Under the pieces are notes generated by a model. That model was not told where the DNA came from and did not search any database. It saw nothing but the letters and a program-made list of their open reading frames with translations. This document shows positions 411-12,496 of a stretch of 64,000 bases of DNA, one piece after another (within the stretch, counting starts at the first letter, position 1; each line of letters opens with the position of its first letter). The position numbers were made by a program, and so were the translations under genes. This DNA is from Fulvivirga marina (lineage in GTDB: Bacteria; Bacteroidota; Bacteroidia; Cytophagales; Cyclobacteriaceae): assembly GCF_016775155.1 (NCBI RefSeq), contig NZ_JAEUGD010000066.1, positions 1,028,833 through 1,092,832 on the forward strand, in the 5' to 3' direction.

Positions 411-436
411 GAGAAAGTCCTTTTACAGACTTTCTC
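411..436 (-). terminator. Hairpin at the end of the trp-aroF operon
   Basis: A perfect 9-bp inverted repeat (GAGAAAGTC / GACTTTCTC, 8-base loop) spans the stop codon of the DAHP synthase gene. It is followed on the minus strand by a T-rich but not uninterrupted tract, so termination is plausible rather than certain. Confidence 0.4.
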
Positions 437-1433
437 TCAGTTCGAAGACTTTCCTTATTTTATTGATAAGTTTTTCTGAATCTCTGAAATTAAGCGTCTG
501 CTGTCCATCTGAAAATGCTTCGTTTGGTTTTTCATGAGTTTCATAGATCACGCCGTCTGCTCCAGCCATAACACAAGCCAATGCTACTGGCTCAACATAA
601 TCACGGATACCAATACCATGAGATGGATCCGCAATTACAGGCAAGTGTGTCTTTTCCTTAATAATAGGTATAGCATTAATATCCATGGTATTTCGGCTTG
701 CCCTTTCATAAGTTCTTATACCTCGTTCACAGAGCATCAGATTCTCATTACCAGCAGAAAAAACATATTCTGCAGAATATAGTAATTCGTCAATAGTTCC
801 TGAAATTCCGCGCTTAATTAGAACCGGTTTGTCTACTTTACCAAGTTCATCCAGGAGGTTAAAGTTTTGAGTATTTCTGGCTCCTACCTGATACACATCA
901 ATATAGTCATACATCTCCTCAATTTGAGACACCTGCATCACTTCGGTAATGATTTTAATTCCGGCCTCTCTGGCAGCTGTATACCATTTCTTTAGCCCCT
1001 CTATGCCAAGCCCCCGGAATGAATAAGGAGAACTTCTGGGTTTATACACCCCTCCTCTCATGATTCTTACATCATTAGCTTTGAGATGTTCTATAATCTT
1101 ATTGATTTGTTCCTCACTTTCAATGGAACAGGGTCCCGCCATTATAGCCATATCTCCCTCAGAAATAAACACGCCATCTCCAAGGTCAATGCTTGTCGGG
1201 TTTACCTTCCACTTTCTCGATACCAGCTTATAATCATCAGAAACAATATGGATATCTGAAATACCCTGCATTTGTCCTATTTCCCTAATATCAAATTCAT
1301 TTTTCCCAATACCGATGATATAATCCCCTTTTTGCGTGGTAACCTCGGTGGTTTTGTATTTCAGAGTATTAACCTTTTCTATTATCCTTTGCTTTTTTTC
1401 TTCTGGTAGGCCGGTTTGTAACTGTATAATCAT
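423..1433 (-). CDS. aroF: 3-deoxy-7-phosphoheptulonate (DAHP) synthase, type I-beta
   Basis: Condenses phosphoenolpyruvate with erythrose 4-phosphate, the first step of the shikimate pathway. At 336 aa it has the layout of the Thermotoga-type (KDO8PS-like, I-beta) enzymes: a small ferredoxin-like N-terminal domain (about residues 1-70) that in relatives mediates feedback inhibition, then the TIM barrel. Visible motifs are GPCSIES (100-106, metal-binding Cys), KPRSSPYSF (131-139, substrate binding) and IADPSHGIG near the C-terminus (metal His). It is the last gene of the trp operon, 3 bases after trpA, so precursor supply is probably co-regulated with tryptophan synthesis. No chorismate mutase domain is fused to it. 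The symbol follows common annotation of this class; aroG or aroA are used for the same family. Confidence 0.93.
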   Translation of the reverse strand: MIIQLQTGLPEEKKQRIIEKVNTLKYKTTEVTTQKGDYIIGIGKNEFDIREIGQMQGISDIHIVSDDYKLVSRKWKVNPTSIDLGDGVFISEGDMAIMAGPCSIESEEQINKIIEHLKANDVRIMRGGVYKPRSSPYSFRGLGIEGLKKWYTAAREAGIKIITEVMQVSQIEEMYDYIDVYQVGARNTQNFNLLDELGKVDKPVLIKRGISGTIDELLYSAEYVFSAGNENLMLCERGIRTYERASRNTMDINAIPIIKEKTHLPVIADPSHGIGIRDYVEPVALACVMAGADGVIYETHEKPNEAFSDGQQTLNFRDSEKLINKIRKVFELRESL

Positions 1434-1436
1434 TGT

Positions 1437-2225
1437 TTATGCTTTTATGTCCTTTACGAATGTTTTTATCTGCTCTTTAAGGTTTGTGGCCGTCTGAAGT
1501 AACTTAATGAAAGCACTACCTATAATAGCTCCATTACTATATGATGAGGCCGCCTTGAAAGTCTCATTATTGGATATACCAAAACCTATAAGCAATGGGT
1601 TTTTCAACTGCATATTTTGCACACGCTCAAAGTATTTTCGCTGCTGGTTTCCCAACAAATCTCTGGCACCTGTTACGCTTGCTGACGAAACCATATAGAT
1701 AAAACTATTGGTGTGTTTATCAATAAGTCTAATGCGACTTTCTGAGGTCTGAGGTGTAATCAGAAAAACATTTTTAAGGCCATGTTCTAAAAATATATTT
1801 TCATAAAGTGCCAGATATTCTGCCATGGGCAAATCAGGGATTATGACACCATCAACACCGCACCGCTCACACTCAGCACAAAATTTACTTATACCAAACT
1901 GCAGTACAGGGTTGATATACCCCATTAATATAACAGGAATAGATACTTTTTTACGCAAATCTGCCAACTGATCAAACAGAATGCGTAAGCTCATACCATT
2001 ATCCAATGCCTTCTTGCTGCTTTCCTGGATTGTTGGTCCATCTGCCACCGGATCAGAAAATGGCATTCCTATCTCTATGATATCGGCCCCGGCTTCCTCT
2101 AGATACTGAGCAATTTTCAAGGTATCACCCAACTCTGGAAAACCTGCTGTATAGTATACCGAAAGCACATCTTTACTGTTCGACTCAAACAATTCGTTTA
2201 TTCTATTTGAAGTTTTTGTATTCAT
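1437..2225 (-). CDS. trpA: Tryptophan synthase alpha chain
   Basis: Cleaves indole-3-glycerol phosphate to indole and glyceraldehyde 3-phosphate; indole is channelled to TrpB in the alpha2-beta2 complex. The 262 aa are the normal length. The catalytic acids are visible as E51 in IIEIGMPFSDP and D62 in ADGPTIQ, and GFGISN in the C-terminal part is the phosphate-binding loop. It lies 37 bases downstream of trpB in the operon and 3 bases upstream of the DAHP synthase gene. Confidence 0.96.
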   Translation of the reverse strand: MNTKTSNRINELFESNSKDVLSVYYTAGFPELGDTLKIAQYLEEAGADIIEIGMPFSDPVADGPTIQESSKKALDNGMSLRILFDQLADLRKKVSIPVILMGYINPVLQFGISKFCAECERCGVDGVIIPDLPMAEYLALYENIFLEHGLKNVFLITPQTSESRIRLIDKHTNSFIYMVSSASVTGARDLLGNQQRKYFERVQNMQLKNPLLIGFGISNNETFKAASSYSNGAIIGSAFIKLLQTATNLKEQIKTFVKDIKA

Positions 2226-2262
2226 AATTCAAGGTTGTTAATACGATTAAAACTCTCCCTAT

Positions 2263-3477
2263 TCAGTATTTCCCCCATTTGATATAAGTATCAAGATCCT
2301 TATCTCCCCTGCCGGATAAATTAACCACAACTATATCGTCAGAAGCAAACTCCATTTTCTCCAAAGCAGCAAGAGCATGCGCTGACTCTATGGCTGGAAT
2401 GATACCTTCATACCTGCTCAACTCTACACCAGCATGCATGGCTTCTTCATCACTGGCATTAACAAACTTAACTCGACCTGTTTCAAACAAATGAGCATGC
2501 ATAGGGCCAATACCAGGATAGTCCAGCCCTGCCGAAATAGAATATGGTTCAATAACCTGTCCGTCTTCCGTTTGCATAAGTAGTGTCTTACTTCCGTGAA
2601 GTACTCCCTCTTTCCCCAAGGCAGTAGTAGCCGCTGACTCACCGCTGTTCACACCTTTACCTGCAGCCTCAACGGCAACCAGGTTTACTTCTTCATCGCC
2701 CAGAAAATTATAAAACGCACCTGCTGCATTGCTACCTCCACCCACGCAAGCTATAACATAGTGAGGTAACTGCCGCCCTTCTTCCTGCTCCAACTGGAGC
2801 CTCATCTCTTCACTGATCACACTTTGAAAGCGAGCCACCATATCTGGATATGGGTGAGGCCCCACAACCGACCCGATAATATAATGGGTATCCAAGGGGT
2901 TATTAATCCAGTGGCGCATAGCTTCATTAGTGGCATCTTTAAGGGTCCGACTCCCACAAGTCGCAGGCACTACTTCAGCACCAAGTATCCTCATGCGCTC
3001 TACATTGGGCCTTTGACGAGCCATATCAACTTCACCCATATAAACAATACACTCCAGCCCCATCAAAGCACAAACAGTGGCTGTTGCCACACCATGCTGA
3101 CCTGCACCTGTTTCTGCAATTATTTTGCTTTTACCCAACTTTTTTGCCAGAATGATCTGTCCAATAGTATTGTTTACTTTGTGAGCCCCTGTATGACAGA
3201 GATCCTCTCTCTTCAGGTATATTTTTGTGTTATACTTTTCAGATAGTCTTCGTGCATAATATAACGGTGTAGGCCTACCTACATAGTCCTTAAGCAGCTT
3301 CTGAAATTCATTACGAAAGTCTGTTGATTCTATTATTTGCAGGTAATTTTCTCTTAGTTCATCAACATTAGGATATAACATCTCAGGGATATAGGCTCCT
3401 CCAAACTGACCATAATAGCCCTGTTCATCTACGGTATACCGGCTTTTCTCAATCGTATTTTTTATTATATCAGACAT
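2263..3477 (-). CDS. trpB: Tryptophan synthase beta chain
   Basis: PLP enzyme that joins indole and serine to give tryptophan. 404 aa, full length, of the TrpB1 type that pairs with TrpA. The PLP lysine is K100 in [10 protein letters not shown], the phosphate-cradle GGGSNA is in the middle of the protein and the ligand-binding [17 protein letters not shown] region is intact. Two bases separate its start from the trpF stop, consistent with translational coupling. Confidence 0.97.
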
Positions 3478-3479
3478 AA

Positions 3480-4112
3480 TTATTGCATTTGCTGTTTTAG
3501 TTGTTTGATAAGTTCAGTGTTTTTTAGCCCGGGGCTAACTTCAAACTGGCTATTAATATCGATGGCATAAATATCCAGATCATCAATTTCCTCTAGCTGG
3601 CAGATATTTTCCAAAGTCAAACCTCCACTCAAAATGATCGGTTTAGGCAAGTCTAGCCCCTTTAGGTGTGTCCAGTCAAAAGCTACTCCGTTGCCCCCAT
3701 ATTTCTGAAGTCTCGTATCAAACAGATAGTAATCTACCACTTCCCCATATCCCATCAGCAGGTCCCTGTCTATAGTATCGTTTCCTGAAAAGACCTTGAT
3801 CACCCCCACTCCATTTATCTTAAGGTGCAGACACTCTTCAAAAGGCTCATCTCCATGTAATTGGGCAAAGTCCAGTTCATACATGCGAGCTATCTCCAAT
3901 ACCTTTTCCACTGGGTGATTCACAAACACACCGACCTTCATTGTAGACTCCGAGAATCCAGAAAAATGATCTTTCATCAATACATCCCCAACATAACGTG
4001 GCGACCTGTTATAGAAAATAAACCCGACGAAATCAGGCTTAAGTTCAGCCACCTCGGGTATGTTATCTCTTAGACCACACACCTTCAACTTAATATTGCT
4101 AAGCTTTGGCAT
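3480..4112 (-). CDS. trpF: Phosphoribosylanthranilate isomerase
   Basis: Converts phosphoribosylanthranilate to the CdRP intermediate. The N-terminus [10 protein letters not shown] contains the catalytic Cys, [11 protein letters not shown] supplies the phosphate-binding Gly-rich loop, and [14 protein letters not shown] is the typical C-terminal motif. I chose the ATG at 4112 (210 aa), which overlaps trpC by 14 bases and is preceded by AAAAGG. A GTG at 4133 would add seven residues and is less likely. TrpC and TrpF are separate proteins here, unlike the fusion in enteric bacteria. Confidence 0.93.
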
Positions 4113-4911
4113 AATTGACCTTTTCAATTTCACTTAACTGCTCAATAAATCTGGCGCAAGACTTTTCAGGCCTACTGTTTCGCATAAAGCGTTCACCTAT
4201 AAGAAAACCGTTAAAACCATGCTTCTTGAGTTCAATTACGTCCTCAGGAGAATGAATACCGCTTTCAGATACTTTAACAACCCCTGAAGGTATTATTCCT
4301 GATAACTTTATGGAAGTATTAATGTTCACATCAAAAGTAGTGAGATCTCTATTATTAACACCTACCAGATCTATATGATCATTAATATGCCCCAATTCAT
4401 CTTCATTATGAATTTCCAGCAGTACTTCAAGCTCCAAAGAATGTGCAAATTTCGCCATTTGCAATACCTCTTGTGGAGTGAGTACGGCAGCTATCAATAG
4501 TATAGCATCAGCACCAATGGACTTAGCTTCTATTATTTGGTATTCATCAACCGTGAAGTCTTTACGGAGTATCGGACAAAAATTAAACTTTCTAGCCACA
4601 AGAAGATCCTCATTTTTGCCTCCAAAATAATTTGTATCAGTAAGTACAGAGAGAGCCGATGCTCCTGCCTGCATGTACCCTATCGAGATTCTTTCAACAG
4701 AAACTTCGGGGTTAATTACACCCTTGGAGGGAGACCTTCTCTTAATCTCTGCTATCACACCCGACTTATCTTCTCTTAAAACGTACTTTTTCAAGGAGAC
4801 GGGCTGCGTATTAAAAAACAAACTTTGTTCAAGAAGTTTAACAGGAAAAAGTTCTCTTTTTCTCTGCACTTCTATTCTCTTATGTTCTACTATCTCTTCT
4901 AGAATATTCAT
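4099..4911 (-). CDS. trpC: Indole-3-glycerol phosphate synthase
   Basis: Closes the indole ring from CdRP. 270 aa, complete TIM barrel. Motifs: EIKRRSPSKG (catalytic Lys, residues ~55-64), ILRKDFTVDEYQI (catalytic Lys), LLEIHNEDEL, VGVNNRDLTTF and VSESGIHSPEDV near the phosphate-binding end. It starts 3 bases after trpD and its end overlaps trpF, as expected in this tightly packed operon. Confidence 0.96.
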   Translation of the reverse strand: MNILEEIVEHKRIEVQRKRELFPVKLLEQSLFFNTQPVSLKKYVLREDKSGVIAEIKRRSPSKGVINPEVSVERISIGYMQAGASALSVLTDTNYFGGKNEDLLVARKFNFCPILRKDFTVDEYQIIEAKSIGADAILLIAAVLTPQEVLQMAKFAHSLELEVLLEIHNEDELGHINDHIDLVGVNNRDLTTFDVNINTSIKLSGIIPSGVVKVSESGIHSPEDVIELKKHGFNGFLIGERFMRNSRPEKSCARFIEQLSEIEKVNYAKA

Positions 4912-4914
4912 GGT

Positions 4915-5925
4915 TTATGCTGTTGTAAAAGTTCTCTTTTTATTTACTAATCTGTTGAATGCTCTTAGCGCTTTACCTGATACTAAAGAGGCATGTGCTC
5001 TGGCTATACTATCCTCCATTGATTCTGTCTGGTCAGCACAGTTCAATGCCATCCCTGCATTAGCGATTACTACTGCATTTTGAGCATCAGTACCTTCTCC
5101 ATTCAATATTTTCATAAATATTTTAGCCGATTCTTCAATGGTTTTACCTCCGGATATCTCTTCTTTCATTACTCTGGGCAGTCCCAGGTTATCCGGGCTT
5201 AGAATTTTCTCGCCTTTATTAGAAATCATTTTAAAGTTTCCTGTTAGAGAAATCTCATCATAGCCATCCAATGCATGCAGGATAACAAAATCCTTATTCG
5301 ATTTCTGATATAAATACCCATAAAGCCTAGCCAACTCCAGATTAAAAACGCCAACCAGCTGCTTGCGTGGAAATGAGGGATTAACCATGGGACCTAACAT
5401 ATTAAAGAAGGTTTTCACTCCCAGCTCTCTACGAATAGGTGCAACATTTTTCATTGCAGGATGAAATAATGGTGCATGCAAAAAGCATATCCCCGCTTCA
5501 TCGAGGCTTCTTTTCAATTCACTTTTATTGCCGCTAAATTCATAACCAAAGTGGCTCAGCAAATTGGAAGACCCGCATATAGAAGACACCCCATTATTTC
5601 CATGTTTGGCAACATTTTGTCCGGCCCCTGCTACTACAAAAGACGAAAGCGTAGAAATGTTAAAGGTATCTTTACCGTCTCCTCCTGTTCCGCAAAGATC
5701 AATAGCATCATATTCATCAATTTCAACAGGTGTACATAGTTCCAGCATAGCATCTCTAAAACCTTCCAGTTCATCTACCGTGATGGTCCGCATCATATAA
5801 ACTGTTAAAAATGCGGCCACCTGACTGTGGGTGTACTTCCCTTGGGCAAGCTCAATGAGTATTTGCCTTGAAAAGTCTCTATCAAGCGATTTATGTTCAA
5901 TAAGTTTATTAAGTATATCTTTCAT
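4915..5925 (-). CDS. trpD: Anthranilate phosphoribosyltransferase
   Basis: Transfers phosphoribose from PRPP to anthranilate. 336 aa, the usual length. The PRPP-binding signature CGTGGDGKDTFNIST begins at residue 78 and KHGNNGVSS follows; NMLGPMVNP is the conserved hinge/active-site segment. It is not fused to TrpG. Spacing to trpG is 58 bases, the widest gap in the operon, in which I see no convincing separate promoter. Confidence 0.96.
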   Translation of the reverse strand: MKDILNKLIEHKSLDRDFSRQILIELAQGKYTHSQVAAFLTVYMMRTITVDELEGFRDAMLELCTPVEIDEYDAIDLCGTGGDGKDTFNISTLSSFVVAGAGQNVAKHGNNGVSSICGSSNLLSHFGYEFSGNKSELKRSLDEAGICFLHAPLFHPAMKNVAPIRRELGVKTFFNMLGPMVNPSFPRKQLVGVFNLELARLYGYLYQKSNKDFVILHALDGYDEISLTGNFKMISNKGEKILSPDNLGLPRVMKEEISGGKTIEESAKIFMKILNGEGTDAQNAVVIANAGMALNCADQTESMEDSIARAHASLVSGKALRAFNRLVNKKRTFTTA

Positions 5926-5983
5926 CTGTAAATATTTTTAGTAATGAAGTATAGGTTCTAAGGCTGTTATCAGTCTAATTCAA

Positions 5984-6559
5984 TTAGTTCTTCAGCCAAT
6001 TACCAATAAGTTGTTTTCCATATTCCGTCAGTATTGATTCCGGGTGAAATTGCAAACCTCTCACATCATACTCCACATGCTTCAATCCCATAATATTGTT
6101 CTGTTCATCAATGGCGGTTACTTTCAGCTTACCGTTAATAGACTCAGGTAAAACAGCCCAGCTGTGATAATGGCAACCTTTAAATTTTTCAGGCACGCCT
6201 TTAAACAAGTAATCCTCAGGCTCTAGTACTGAAATATCGCTTGCCACGCCATGAAGCACTGTAAACATATTATATAGCTTGCTACCGAATACTTCGGCAA
6301 TACCTTGAAGCCCAAGACAAATTCCAAGAATACTTTTTTCAGCTCCATACCGCTTGATCAACGGCTTAAGTATACCTGCCTCATCAGGTATCCCTGGCCC
6401 AGGGGAGATGAGTATTTTATCATAAGCACCAGCTTCTTCAACCGTAATTTTATCATTACGAATTACGCTAAGAGCTTCTCCATAGCCCAATTCCTTAATG
6501 ATATGAACTATGTTGTAGGTAAATGAATCGTAATTATCGAGTAAAAGTATATCTTTCAT
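5984..6559 (-). CDS. trpG: Anthranilate synthase component II (glutamine amidotransferase)
   Basis: Provides ammonia from glutamine to TrpE. 191 aa class I amidotransferase: ISPGPGIPDEAG forms the oxyanion region, the nucleophile is C81 in GICLGLQG, and QFHPESILTEYG holds the catalytic His and Glu. The same subunit could also serve a PabB (folate), but no pab gene is in the window. It begins 9 bases after trpE. Confidence 0.95.
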   Translation of the reverse strand: MKDILLLDNYDSFTYNIVHIIKELGYGEALSVIRNDKITVEEAGAYDKILISPGPGIPDEAGILKPLIKRYGAEKSILGICLGLQGIAEVFGSKLYNMFTVLHGVASDISVLEPEDYLFKGVPEKFKGCHYHSWAVLPESINGKLKVTAIDEQNNIMGLKHVEYDVRGLQFHPESILTEYGKQLIGNWLKN

Positions 6560-6568
6560 TGCTGTAAT

Positions 6569-7972
6569 TCAGTTAAGTTTTTGAGCCATATCAATTGCTT
6601 TTCTTAGAGCAGCGAGTTTATTATTTACTTCCTGAAGTTCGCTTGAAGGCAGTGATTTTGCCACCACTCCAGCTCCCGCCTGATAATGTAATGTATTATC
6701 CTTACTCAAAAATGACCTTATCATGATGGCATGATTAAAATCTCCATTGAACCCCATAAAGCCGATAGCTCCTCCATAATAGTTCCTGCTCGTATTTTCA
6801 TACTTGTCAATTAATTGCATAGCCATGTGCTTGGGAGCTCCTGAAAGTGTACCTGCCGGAAAAGTACTGGCTACCAATCTCAGTGGAGAAGACTCTCCGT
6901 TAAGCTGCCCTGTAACTTTGCTTACCAGGTGTATTACATGCGAATAATATTGTATCTCTTTAAAGACATCTACAGCAACATTTTCCGAACTACGACTCAA
7001 GTCATTTCTAGCAAGATCCACCAACATCACATGCTCTGCATTCTCCTTTTCATCCGCAGCGAGTTGTTGTGCCAGTTCTGCATCAGCCATATCATTACCA
7101 GTGCGTTTAAATGTACCTGCTATTGGATAAATGCTAGCTTGTGAACCTTTGATGACAATTTGCGACTCAGGAGATGATCCAAAAATTTTAAAGCTTCCAT
7201 AATCGAAATAAAAGAGGTAAGGAGATGGATTAATGGAGCGAAGGGCACGGTAAACATTAAATTCATCACCTTGAAACTCATTCTCAAATCTTCGTGACAA
7301 CACAATCTGAAAAACATCACCACGCAAACAGTGAGAGCGCCCTTTAGTAAGTATCTGGAGAAATTCATCATCAGTGTAGTTTGACTTCTCCTCCCCGTTT
7401 AAAGTAAAATCAAATTGTGGATCATTATTGATCTTTATGAGTGACTCAACATAACTGAGGTTTCCTTTCTTTTCAAACTCATCTATTTTGTGTTCAAAAA
7501 GATATAACTCATTTTTGAAGTGATCGATGACTATTACATAGCGGTACATTTTGTAAATCATATCCGGTATGGCATCATTCACCTGCTCTATAGCTATATC
7601 TTCAAAATACTTTATATTGTCGTAGCCCATATAACCAAACAGCCCATTGGAGATAAACTTATATTCAGACTCTTCAGTAATGAAAGACTCTCTAAAAGCG
7701 TTTAACTCATCCAGCAAATTCCCTCTATCTACTTCCAATATTTCGCTTTTACCCCCTGGATATTCTCTCCTTAGTTTTCCATTGCTCACCTCAAAAGAGG
7801 CAATAGGAGAACAACATATATAGGAGTAACTGTTGTCTGCTCCATGGTAATCAGAACTTTCCAGCAGGATACTTTGAGCAAACTTGTCCCGTAACCTAAG
7901 GTAAATACTTACCGGGGTCAGGGTGTCTGCCAGTAGTTTTCTGGTGTTGGTCTTAACGGTGAATTTGTTCAT
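6569..7972 (-). CDS. trpE: Anthranilate synthase component I
   Basis: Makes anthranilate from chorismate with TrpG. 467 aa chorismate-binding enzyme: SSPESQIV, YPIAGTFKRTG, AEHVMLVDLARND and TFPAGTLSGAPK are the conserved active-site blocks, and GGAIGFMGFNGD and QAGAGVVAKS close the C-terminal domain. The N-terminal segment carries the LLESSD motif typical of the tryptophan feedback site. It is the first structural gene of the operon; its ATG lies 39 bases downstream of the second of two attenuator terminators, so its expression should respond to tryptophanyl-tRNA charging. Confidence 0.96.
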   Translation of the reverse strand: MNKFTVKTNTRKLLADTLTPVSIYLRLRDKFAQSILLESSDYHGADNSYSYICCSPIASFEVSNGKLRREYPGGKSEILEVDRGNLLDELNAFRESFITEESEYKFISNGLFGYMGYDNIKYFEDIAIEQVNDAIPDMIYKMYRYVIVIDHFKNELYLFEHKIDEFEKKGNLSYVESLIKINNDPQFDFTLNGEEKSNYTDDEFLQILTKGRSHCLRGDVFQIVLSRRFENEFQGDEFNVYRALRSINPSPYLFYFDYGSFKIFGSSPESQIVIKGSQASIYPIAGTFKRTGNDMADAELAQQLAADEKENAEHVMLVDLARNDLSRSSENVAVDVFKEIQYYSHVIHLVSKVTGQLNGESSPLRLVASTFPAGTLSGAPKHMAMQLIDKYENTSRNYYGGAIGFMGFNGDFNHAIMIRSFLSKDNTLHYQAGAGVVAKSLPSSELQEVNNKLAALRKAIDMAQKLN

Positions 7973-8010: not shown

Positions 8011-8046
8011 ATAAAAAAGGCTTGCCGTATGAACGGCAAGCCTTTT
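8011..8046 (-). terminator. trp attenuator 2: intrinsic terminator
   Basis: A perfect 10-bp stem (GGCTTGCCGT / ACGGCAAGCC, 4-base loop) is extended by flanking A and T pairs and followed on the minus strand by TTTTTT. It sits between the second leader peptide and trpE. The competing pairing is less obvious than in attenuator 1: the leader segment TGAACG can pair with CGTTCA at the top of the first arm and loop. Confidence 0.85.
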
Positions 8047-8068
8047 AATATATGCATAGCATGGTCGT

Positions 8069-8131
8069 TCACTCTCCGATATGCGAAAAATGCCACCACC
8101 ATACTTTATTGATATATATTAATGTTCTCAT
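8069..8131 (-). CDS. trp operon leader peptide 2 (20 aa, three consecutive Trp)
   Basis: ATG at 8131, TGA at 8069-8071. The peptide contains KVWWWHFSHIG, i.e. three Trp codons in a row (8093-8101) followed by His. It lies just upstream of the terminator at 8011-8046 and downstream of the first attenuator. In known trp attenuators, ribosome stalling at tandem Trp codons when tRNA-Trp is uncharged prevents terminator folding. The peptide itself probably has no other role. Confidence 0.85.
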   Translation of the reverse strand: MRTLIYINKVWWWHFSHIGE

Positions 8132-8151
8132 CTTATATTTTTAATTAATAT

Positions 8152-8184
8152 AAAAAAAGCTCGCTGTTGAACAGCGAGCCTTTT
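8152..8184 (-). terminator. trp attenuator 1: intrinsic terminator
   Basis: A perfect 10-bp stem (GCTCGCTGTT / AACAGCGAGC, single C loop as drawn) is followed on the minus strand by seven T. The leader segment GAACGGCG (8216-8223) can pair with CGCTGTTC of the first arm (8 bp with one G-U pair) as antiterminator. AATAACGC (8254-8261), immediately before the Trp codons, can pair with GCGTTGTT (8211-8218), which shares its GCG with the antiterminator. This is the classical 1:2, 2:3, 3:4 arrangement. Confidence 0.88.
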
Positions 8185-8222
8185 GAATGTTTTGATCTAT
8201 TTTATCTCATAACAACGCCGTT

Positions 8223-8279
8223 CTACCAAGTTTTGGTATAGTGCCACCACCATGCGTTATTTAATGAGTTGTTTTTCAT
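8223..8279 (-). CDS. trpL: trp operon leader peptide 1 (18 aa, four Trp)
   Basis: ATG at 8279, TAG at 8223-8225; the product is MKNNSLNNAWWWHYTKTW. Three Trp codons are consecutive (8244-8252) and a fourth is the last codon before the stop. It is followed by the terminator at 8152-8184 and preceded by a promoter whose -7 element ends only 8 bases before the ATG, so the transcript would have almost no 5' untranslated region. Shared WWWH plus aromatic and Ser/Thr residues with leader peptide 2 suggest that the two attenuators arose by duplication. Confidence 0.88.
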   Translation of the reverse strand: MKNNSLNNAWWWHYTKTW

Positions 8280-8287
8280 ATCCAGAT

Positions 8288-8318
8288 CAAAAGTATAAAA
8301 GGGAAATTTTATGTGCAA
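8288..8318 (-). promoter_or_regulatory. Promoter of the trp operon (Bacteroidota type)
   Basis: On the minus strand TTG (8316-8318) and TACTTTTG (8288-8295) are separated by 20 bases and match the Bacteroidota housekeeping consensus of a TTG-type -33 element and TAnnTTTG at -7. The identical octamer precedes the SRP RNA gene in this window, where the RNA should begin 5 bases after the final G. Applying that spacing puts the trp start near 8283, about 4 bases before the leader-1 ATG. Confidence 0.7.
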
Positions 8319-8462: not shown

Positions 8463-10547
8463 TTACCAAATCTTTACTCTGACACTATCTGCCCTGTACA
8501 TACCATCACCCGGCTTCACATCAAAAGCCTGATAGAAGGTTTCCAGATTAGCCAAAGGCCCGTTGGCCCTGTACATACCTGGTGAGTGAGGGTCAGTATT
8601 TACTTGTGTTCTCAAGGTTTCGTCCTTATACTTAATTCTCCAAATGGTTGCCCAAGATACAAAGAATCTCTGCTCAGGGGTCATTTCGTCGATGAGTCCC
8701 GGATTACCGTGCTCTGCAAGGTGACGCTGAAGCCCATCATATGCAGCACTAACACCTCCCAAATCACCAATATTTTCGCCCAAAGTAAAGGCTCCGTTAA
8801 CTTTAACACTATCTAAGGGCTCATACGCATCATATTGTGCAATAAGTTGTCCAGTTCTGGCTTTAAAGCTGACGGCATCTTCATCGGTCCACCAGTTTTT
8901 CATATTTCCTTCTGCATCAAATCTACTTCCCTGATCATCAAAGCAGTGAGATATCTCATGTCCTATTACGGCGCCTATACCACCATAATTCACCGCCATA
9001 TCAGCTTTATAGTTGTAGAAAGGAGGCTGAAGAATAGCTGCAGGAAATACAATTTCGTTAAATAATGGGTTAAAATATGCATTTACTGTCTGCGGACTCA
9101 TCCCCCACTCTTTCTTATCAACAGGTTTACCTATTTTATTAATCTGATAATTAAAGGCAAACTTATTCGCATTGAGTATATTTCCAACATAAGAAGATTT
9201 CTCCGGGTCGCCTTCAACAACGAGACCTGAGTAATCTCTCCACTCATCAGGATATCCTATTTTGACAGTCATTGTCCTCAATTTTTCCAAAGCTTTTTCC
9301 TTTGTAGAATCTGACATCCAATCCAGGTTTTTAATTCTATCGGCAAATGCCAGTTTGATATTTTCCACCATCTCCTGAGCCTTTTGCTTGGCTTCAGGTG
9401 GGAATACGTCATCTACATACAATTTACCAATAGCTTCTCCCAATGAAGCATTGGTAGATGCCAGTACTCTCTTCCAGCGAGGCTGCATTTCTTCAACACC
9501 TCTTAATTCTTTGCTGAAGAACTCAAAATTAGCCTGTACGAATTCATTGCTTAAATAACTTGCATTGGAATCAAGCACTCTCCACCTCAAGTACTCTTTC
9601 CACGTAGCTACCGGCACCTCTTGTGTGATCTTTTGAAATTCCTCAACGAATTTGGGTTGCATAACAATCAGGGTATCTATACCCTTAACTCCCATATCGG
9701 CAAGATATTCTGTCCAATCTATTGAAGGTGCAAGTTTGGAAAGATCTTCCAATGACATCTTGTTATAAAGTGCAGGTATGTTTCTTCTCTCTACATTAGT
9801 CATAGAAGCCTCCGCCATTCTTGTTTCAAGTTCCATAATTCTTTGAGCCTGACCTTCGGCACTTTTCTGATCATCTCCCAAAAGTTTCAGCATCCTAACC
9901 AGATGTTGCTCATACTTCTCTCTGATCTCTTTGGATTTAGAATCGGTTTTGGTGTAATAGTCTCTATCAGGAAGTCCCAATCCTCCTTGCCCAACATAAG
10001 CAGCCATTACCTTACTATTTTTGAGATCGGGAAATACTGCAAACCCAAAAAAGGCTCCACCCCCGTAAGTCTCTTGCTCAGAAAGATACTTCTGAAGATC
10101 TTTTACATTTTCAATTTTCGAAATCTTCTCAAAATAGAACTCAAGTGGCTTAGCTCCTGCTTTCTCTGCCAATAGAGAGTCCATGCCTATGGCATAAAAA
10201 TCCGTGGCCTTCTTTTGATCTGTACCTTCCCCATATTTATTGCTTTTACCCGCGTTTTCAAGTACGTTCAGCACAGTCTCATTCGTCATTTCACGAAGCT
10301 CGTTAAAGCTCCCCCACCTACCCTGGTCACCAGGGATTTCCGTTTGGTCTACCCACTTACCATTTACAAAACGAAAGAAATCATCCGCAGGTCTTACTGT
10401 CGAATCAATATAGGTAGTATTGATCCCTATAACTTTATCTGTTTCTTCAACCTTCGACTTATCTTCGGATGTACCACAGGCAACAACCATGGCAGCCATC
10501 CCTAAAGCCAAAAGTGTATTTGATAGGTTTAAACTTTTTAAATACAT
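8463..10547 (-). CDS. M13 family zinc metallopeptidase (neprilysin/PepO type), lipoprotein
   Basis: 694-aa endopeptidase that degrades peptides outside the cytoplasm. The N-terminus has a lipoprotein signal with lipobox VVACG (Cys ~24), so it is probably anchored in the outer or inner membrane facing the periplasm. The zinc site is VIGHEISHCFDDQG (around residue 530), with the third ligand in ENIGDLGG; the substrate motif NAYFNP precedes it. The end ..VRVKIW resembles the CxVW-like C-terminus typical of the family. It appears monocistronic, with its own upstream region at 10548-10709. Confidence 0.92.
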   Translation of the reverse strand: MYLKSLNLSNTLLALGMAAMVVACGTSEDKSKVEETDKVIGINTTYIDSTVRPADDFFRFVNGKWVDQTEIPGDQGRWGSFNELREMTNETVLNVLENAGKSNKYGEGTDQKKATDFYAIGMDSLLAEKAGAKPLEFYFEKISKIENVKDLQKYLSEQETYGGGAFFGFAVFPDLKNSKVMAAYVGQGGLGLPDRDYYTKTDSKSKEIREKYEQHLVRMLKLLGDDQKSAEGQAQRIMELETRMAEASMTNVERRNIPALYNKMSLEDLSKLAPSIDWTEYLADMGVKGIDTLIVMQPKFVEEFQKITQEVPVATWKEYLRWRVLDSNASYLSNEFVQANFEFFSKELRGVEEMQPRWKRVLASTNASLGEAIGKLYVDDVFPPEAKQKAQEMVENIKLAFADRIKNLDWMSDSTKEKALEKLRTMTVKIGYPDEWRDYSGLVVEGDPEKSSYVGNILNANKFAFNYQINKIGKPVDKKEWGMSPQTVNAYFNPLFNEIVFPAAILQPPFYNYKADMAVNYGGIGAVIGHEISHCFDDQGSRFDAEGNMKNWWTDEDAVSFKARTGQLIAQYDAYEPLDSVKVNGAFTLGENIGDLGGVSAAYDGLQRHLAEHGNPGLIDEMTPEQRFFVSWATIWRIKYKDETLRTQVNTDPHSPGMYRANGPLANLETFYQAFDVKPGDGMYRADSVRVKIW

Positions 10548-12327: not shown

Positions 12328-12335
12328 TACTTTTG
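12328..12335 (+). promoter_or_regulatory. -7 element of the SRP RNA gene
   Basis: TACTTTTG fits TAnnTTTG exactly and lies 5 bases before the predicted 5' end of the RNA at 12340. No clear TTG-type -33 box is seen at the usual distance; a T-run at 12305-12308 is the nearest candidate. Confidence 0.65.
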
Positions 12336-12339
12336 CAGT

Positions 12340-12431
12340 GGCAAATCAGTACGACCAGCTCCTGCTGAACTCCCCCAGGACCGGAAGGTAGCAAGGGTAG
12401 GCGGTTGTAGCGGTGCGATACTTGATTTGCC
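12340..12431 (+). ncRNA. ffs: Signal recognition particle RNA (4.5S, small bacterial type)
   Basis: The 92-base RNA folds as one long hairpin: GGCAAATCA at the 5' end pairs perfectly with TGATTTGCC at the 3' end. The apical part has the Ffh-binding signature, with CAGGACCGGAAGGTAGCA giving the GGAA tetraloop and the symmetric internal loop. A run of seven T (12432-12438) directly after the stem acts as terminator. It binds Ffh to target membrane proteins co-translationally. Confidence 0.95.
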
Positions 12432-12496
12432 TTTTTTTATATCAATTTCTGGATATATCTTAGTGTTCGAAACTATATTCCAACAACCACATATTT

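Follow-up and report, generated by a model that had tools for sequence, protein, structure and literature searches.

According to the available passages of a 2010 survey, leader-peptide systems had previously been described only in Proteobacteria and Actinobacteria, to which that survey added the Firmicutes (PMC2965389). Tandem T-boxes are, in the part of the study at hand, reported to be strongly enriched in the trp operons of Bacillota (PMC12452182), and the accessible section of a review describes how tandem T-boxes act as unknown (PMC7583486). The word 'tandem' does not occur in the available passages of a modelling study on the sensitivity of attenuators (PMC1183508). The locus bears on the question of why several RNA switches that read the same signal are stacked in front of an operon. 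The original prediction for the locus described here, which was made from the DNA letters alone, had known of no described tandem example in Bacteroidota; likewise, no description of a tandem leader-peptide trp attenuator was found among the matches listed for the open-access literature, and an earlier description is possible. What is new here is the stacking of attenuators and its recurrence, whereas the single unit and its textbook mechanism are known.

The window, i.e. the whole stretch of DNA analysed, comprises 64,000 nucleotides of the genome of Fulvivirga marina. The original prediction had placed a promoter, two leaders, two terminators and trpE on its minus strand, and all coordinates and leader peptides proved correct (Table 1). 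Its central claim, two complete Trp-codon attenuators in series behind one promoter-like site, was borne out as well: one promoter box, two leaders with Trp runs, a terminator behind each, the competing 2:3 pairings and the conservation of these parts can be read from the sequence and its comparison with relatives, in which the pairings are kept. Both leaders carry a run of the operon's own amino-acid codon (WWW) ahead of the trp genes, an intrinsic terminator lies between leader ORF and first gene in both units, and both can form an antiterminator (2:3) that excludes the terminator, the case for this antiterminator being weaker in unit 2. The competing pairings 1:2, 2:3 and 3:4 could be drawn for unit 1 as claimed, and likewise for unit 2, which the claim had not covered. 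In both units the antiterminator arm starts at the leader stop codon, where a ribosome completing the leader peptide would cover it. The promoter box matches TAnnTTTG, the Bacteroidota promoter consensus; this motif was tested on trpE-upstream regions. Transcription would start a few bases 5′ of the leader-1 ATG.

Table 1. Features of the trpE leader region and its surroundings (window positions)
Feature	Position	Strand	Basis or pairing
Promoter -7 box TACTTTTG (TAnnTTTG)	8295-8288	-	sequence; consensus match
Candidate -33 element TTG	8318-8316	-	sequence
Leader 1 MKNNSLNNAWWWHYTKTW, 18 aa, WWW	8279-8223; Trp run 8252-8244; stop 8225-8223	-	ORF and alignment
Leader 1, fourth Trp codon	8228-8226	-	
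Unit 1 region 1 AATAACGC	8261-8254	-	pairs with GCGTTGTT (1:2)
Unit 1 region 2, whole	8211..8223	-	overlapping arms for 2:3 and 1:2
Unit 1 region 2 arm GAACGGCG	8223-8216	-	forms the antiterminator (2:3) with region 3
Unit 1 region 2 arm GCGTTGTT	8218-8211	-	pairs with region 1 (1:2)
Terminator 1 (3:4), 14 pairs	8184-8154	-	fold and comparison
Unit 1 region 3 CGCTGTTC	8176-8169	-	pairs with GAACGGCG (2:3)
Leader 2 MRTLIYINKVWWWHFSHIGE, 20 aa, WWW	8131-8069; Trp run 8101-8093; stop 8071-8069	-	ORF
Unit 2 region 1 AGTATGG	8105-8099	-	pairs with CCATGCT (1:2)
Unit 2 region 2, whole	8058..8072	-	arms for 2:3 and 1:2
Unit 2 region 2 arm GTGAACG	8072-8066	-	pairs with region 3 (2:3)
Unit 2 region 2 arm CCATGCT	8064-8058	-	pairs with AGTATGG (1:2)
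Terminator 2 (3:4), 14 pairs	8046-8015	-	fold and comparison
Unit 2 region 3 CGTTCAT	8035-8029	-	pairs with GTGAACG (2:3)
trpE, presumed first gene of the operon	6569..7972, ATG at 7972	-	NCBIfam TIGR00564
Stretch downstream of trpE, presumed operon	423..6559	-	profile search
PepO-like endopeptidase gene	8463-10547	-	NCBIfam NF052391, below cut-off
Bacteroidales small SRP RNA	12332-12436	+	RF04183, 79.6 bits

TIGR00564 matched trpE best among 26 families, with 421.5 bits against a curated cut-off of 517.7, and trpG, D, C, F, B and A and a DAHP synthase gene follow downstream on the same strand. The fourth Trp codon of leader 1 directly adjoins the stop codon, as it does in loci L004 and L005 (KTW, RNW, KNW); such a codon was absent from the eleven other genus loci read. 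A ribosome held there would mask region 2, favouring termination. On its upstream side the leader region is adjoined by a gene for a PepO-like endopeptidase, and the tail of the same gene was recognised by eye upstream of trpE in L007 and L012. The small SRP RNA further upstream is ordinary.

We consider it very likely that one promoter gives rise to one transcript carrying two leader-peptide transcription attenuators in series, both of which read the charging of tRNA-Trp. When Trp is plentiful, the ribosome would cross the Trp codons of either unit, reach the stop codon and cover region 2, so that the 3:4 terminator forms. When Trp is scarce, a ribosome stalled at the Trp codons would mask region 1, upon which 2:3 would form and polymerase would read through. 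Since polymerase must clear both terminators before it reaches trpE, the read-through probabilities would multiply, and the basal level would be lower and the response steeper than with one unit. Leader translation, ribosome stalling, the efficiency of termination and a multiplying effect are our inferences; the tandem arrangement probably provides a tighter shut-off of the trp genes. A search for the Trp repressor family (PF01371) gave no match in the F. marina genome, and attenuation may thus carry more of the control. Upstream of hisG of F. marina (L237, G000:C63 near 1007000) we observed one His attenuator, MTLFTSTYHHHHHHFNIDLMHGRYMF, with six His codons followed by a strong terminator, and nothing attenuator-like was seen in the 420 nt upstream of the ilvD match. 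The single attenuator of the his operon indicates that stacking is not general for the amino acid operons of F. marina.

Both units folded more stably than every one of 200 dinucleotide shuffles (z -5.8 for unit 1 and -7.4 for unit 2). A detector that calls a short ORF with a Trp run followed by a terminator found a unit in 164 of 170 real trpE-upstream regions, compared with none of 170 reverse strands and none of 850 shuffles.

Comparison of the trpE-upstream regions of related Cytophagales, a check proposed with the original prediction, revealed that the tandem recurs in several lineages. The sample consisted of 39 loci from the genus and its nearest family members, 80 named loci, 60 additional loci of the family (for most genera a single one, chosen on the trpE list blind to the upstream DNA) and 20 longer stretches. 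From 172 loci, 170 unique regions were obtained, which the script scored as 149 with one unit, 15 with two and 6 with none. L216, whose second terminator the detector had overlooked, was then moved to the tandems by eye, giving 148 regions with one unit, 16 with two and 6 with none found; in the pairing, box, similarity and detector tests it is still counted among the 149 scored-single regions. A single Trp attenuator is thus the rule in the family and the tandem the exception. The window's genus contributed 15 loci, from which L014, with a contig that begins within trpE, was dropped, and the tandem is present in 7 of the 14 readable loci (window included). Identical trpE sequences place Fulvivirga sp. 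PL25a_bin.63 and the tandem-bearing Flammeovirgaceae UBA1842 in this genus. Outside the genus the layout occurs in five groups, namely Marivirga sp. ANT-B6 (L053) and the genera of G088; of G093 and G168; of G025; and of G068, G128, G159 and G181.

The 80 named loci, 11 of which repeat earlier loci, showed one WW leader in 74 cases, no such leader in 3 and two in 3 (L045, L053, L057); L045 is the same as L013, and the far ORF of L057 has no terminator and was not counted. Among the 60 family loci, 52 had one leader, 3 none and 5 two, including L195, in which the far ORF again had no terminator and was not counted as tandem; the 4 tandems of this blind-picked set belong to three genera. Mapped onto a quick 77-row trpE tree, the single/tandem state required six changes, likewise six without group g55 and five without the long-branched L216, in a count that leaves L014, L224, L225, L226 and L231 unlabelled, in which the long branches of the gene tree meet and gain and loss are indistinguishable. 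A loose pattern of two TGGTGGTGG runs spaced 106-166 nt apart was rejected, as it matched 127 of 390 order genomes and its control column was about as large; it exposed one further tandem genus, g55, which as a find by pattern is unfit for estimating prevalence. The strict pattern, with an additional T-run in between, matched 8 of the 390 order genomes (F. marina, four of g55, and G225, G275 and G539, the last three taken for chance matches from the letters printed) and F. marina alone among 395 phylum genomes. It captured 9 of the 16 known tandems, so its absence elsewhere is a weak statement.

Several loci deviated from the common layout. In L028, L040 and L036 the terminator of the sole unit ends 133-190 nt 5′ of trpE and the gap looks non-coding, which suggests either loss of a proximal unit or an insertion. 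The single leaders of L018 and L190 have broken Trp runs (WHW, WYWW) instead of WWW. Upstream of trpE in L178/L224, L187/L225, L204/L226 (G016, G062, G046) and L079 no WW leader was found, and these family members may use another type of control.

Conservation of the pairings was analysed in two alignments, one of 14 sequences for unit 1 (the first units of the seven genus tandems and the single attenuators of seven other genus loci, with all of which leader 1 aligns) and one of seven sequences for unit 2 (the genus tandems). Terminator 1 was paired in 100% of cells, with two-sided changes in 3 of 8 pairs, and terminator 2 in 96.8% of cells, with two-sided changes in 4 of 9 pairs. The antiterminator 2:3 was paired in 98.2% of cells in unit 1 and in 93.9% in unit 2, where six core pairs are kept in all seven sequences. 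Pairing 1:2 occupied 92.9% of cells in unit 1, with covariation not above that of shuffles of the 14 sequences, and was kept in three of seven species in unit 2. The covariation score of the antiterminator, which has few two-sided changes, was matched by 28 of 500 shuffles for unit 1 and by 49 of 500 for unit 2. Dinucleotide-shuffle tests of the window itself yielded p 0.03 (2:3) and 0.01 (1:2) for unit 1, and p 0.11 (2:3) and 0.02 (1:2) for unit 2; of the other second units in the genus, five of six reached p ≤ 0.05 for 2:3, L013 giving p 0.12. Over the whole sample, 2:3 was significant at this level in 83 of 149 scored-single units; in the tandems, 9 first units and 8 second units out of 15 each reached it. 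Outside the genus p exceeded 0.1 in 10 of the 16 units tested (unit 1 of L213, L214, L215, L217 and L218; unit 2 of L214, L217, L218, L219 and L220). In a cross-species test, 60 foreign region-3 arms were sampled, and every one paired less well than the own arm of unit 2 of the window; the same test placed 7 of 149 scored-single units in the top 5%, no better than chance. The arms of regions 2 and 3 are alike across the family, which makes this test a poor control, and dinucleotide shuffles were therefore used. The distance from Trp run to terminator was similar throughout, with 47-80 nt in scored-single, 42-63 nt in first and 44-60 nt in second units.

One could assume that a single unit serves as the Trp switch and that its partner is a relic or acts simply as a fail-safe terminator, given that most relatives (148/170) manage with one and that L028, L040 and L036 look as if they had lost a proximal unit or received an insertion. 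However, two-sided changes preserve the pairing of both terminators, the Trp run is present in 7 of 7 second leaders of the genus, and the six core antiterminator pairs of unit 2, kept in all seven, would be superfluous in a fail-safe terminator; we thus regard a single working switch as improbable. Apart from their Trp run, the second leader peptides differ freely, close species included: the closest ones keep frame and stop, show changes at other codons and begin with ATG or GTG. The switch pairings, in contrast, are kept. This argues against the idea that the second unit is retained for a short terminated RNA or a leader peptide acting in trans, for which the trp leader peptide of Sinorhizobium meliloti offers a precedent in the accessible text of one report (PMC7298713), and we give such a product very little credence as an explanation. 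Two working switches on one transcript remain our preferred reading.

Whether the two switches act one after the other depends on the promoters. A scan for TAnnTTTG 18-95 nt upstream of the Trp run found the box in 92 of 149 scored-single regions, before 14 of 15 tandem first units and before none of the 15 second units, compared with 5.3% of shuffled regions. This distribution points to units in series, in which polymerase would have to get past terminator 1 before it could reach unit 2. If unit 2 had a promoter of its own, the units would control separate transcripts in parallel, and a promoter of another type could serve there, a simple sigma-70 scan being ill-suited to this phylum. Yet the one-sided occurrence of the box, together with merely 22 nt from terminator 1 to the leader-2 ATG, renders separate transcripts highly unlikely in our view and favours the serial arrangement.

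The first units of the genus tandems could be aligned with the single attenuator found in other loci of the genus. Judged by this alignment, unit 1 is the ortholog of that attenuator, and unit 2, located between unit 1 and trpE, is the addition. The WWWH core shared by both leaders had been taken as a sign that one unit was duplicated; this was not supported, as the core is common among the single attenuators of the family. When the similarity between the two units of a tandem was ranked against that of unit 2 to the single attenuators of other genera, ranks from 0.26 to 0.94 were obtained for the seven genus tandems and from 0.04 to 0.87 for the eight other tandems. Unit 2 therefore does not resemble the unit 1 beside it more closely than it resembles foreign single units, and duplication is not supported. 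Direct repeats were restricted to short matches near the Trp run and T-run in L004 and one weak pair in L028, with none in L036 and L213. A recent duplication of unit 1 was rejected on these two grounds, the shortness of the direct repeats and the lack of closeness to the own unit 1. Second units from the two tandem clades of the genus scored 18-36 against each other, compared with mean scores of 8-13 and maxima of 24-36 against single units of other genera. It is possible that unit 2 stems from an old duplication, an independent origin or an acquisition.

We lean, by a small margin of confidence, towards the broader assumption that gains (and losses) of a second complete attenuator have recurred in the trp operons of this Cytophagales family, resulting in a two-stage tRNA-Trp sensor with multiplicative and steeper response, where no Trp repressor is found, that is convergent with the tandem T-boxes of Bacillota. 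The enrichment of the latter, as stated in the passages at hand (PMC12452182), makes convergence on stacked tRNA-Trp sensors plausible. Here classical leader-peptide attenuators are stacked too, in several lineages and beside close relatives with one unit. Species of the same genus with one or two units represent matched natural pairs for comparing basal level, steepness of response and the presence of two thresholds.

Among known systems, the Bacteroid-trp RNA RF01692 (Weinberg et al. 2010, in the available part of PMC2864571) is, like the units described here, a leader with a Trp run that precedes trp genes in Bacteroidota. It matched each unit over its full length, with scores (37.2 and 36.3 bits) under the gathering cut-off of 49 bits, and apart from these adjacent units the 6.78 Mb genome of F. 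marina gave no match at E ≤ 1. Matches were present in 38 of 247 phylum genomes, and two adjacent ones in F. marina alone; in six other phylum genomes the two matches were far apart or on separate contigs. Weak copies could be missed in this count, as the filters are strict and six genomes of the same family stand in the table without a match. Ten inspected matches from other families each showed one Trp leader of the same kind. With scores below the cut-off, the units were not filed as members of RF01692, and we regard them as close kin working alike.

The trp attenuator of E. coli shares Trp codons, a terminator and competing pairings with the units of F. marina, and the mechanism is likely the same, as far as the accessible description goes (PMC3641672). 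E. coli combines one unit with the TrpR repressor, whereas F. marina has two units and no PF01371 match. The rimP leader of some Gammaproteobacteria also contains two serial terminators, the upstream one with a possible antiterminator, but in the passages available it is not described as two amino-acid leader peptides (PMC2965389). In Salmonella, the tandem attenuators of mgtCBR likewise place two leader ORFs within one leader RNA; according to the excerpt at hand they sense different signals (ATP and proline), and their stem-loops are unlike intrinsic terminators (PMC3641672). Both F. marina units, in contrast, have intrinsic terminators, and the Trp runs in both leaders set the locus apart from a type with two ORFs for different signals. 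T-box covariance models gave no match in the window. T-boxes bind tRNA directly, whereas the F. marina units imply leader ORFs with Trp runs and ribosome stalling; in the accessible part of the study, the tandem T-boxes of Bacillota nevertheless share with this locus the arrangement of two serial sensors of tRNA-Trp charging upstream of the trp genes (PMC12452182).
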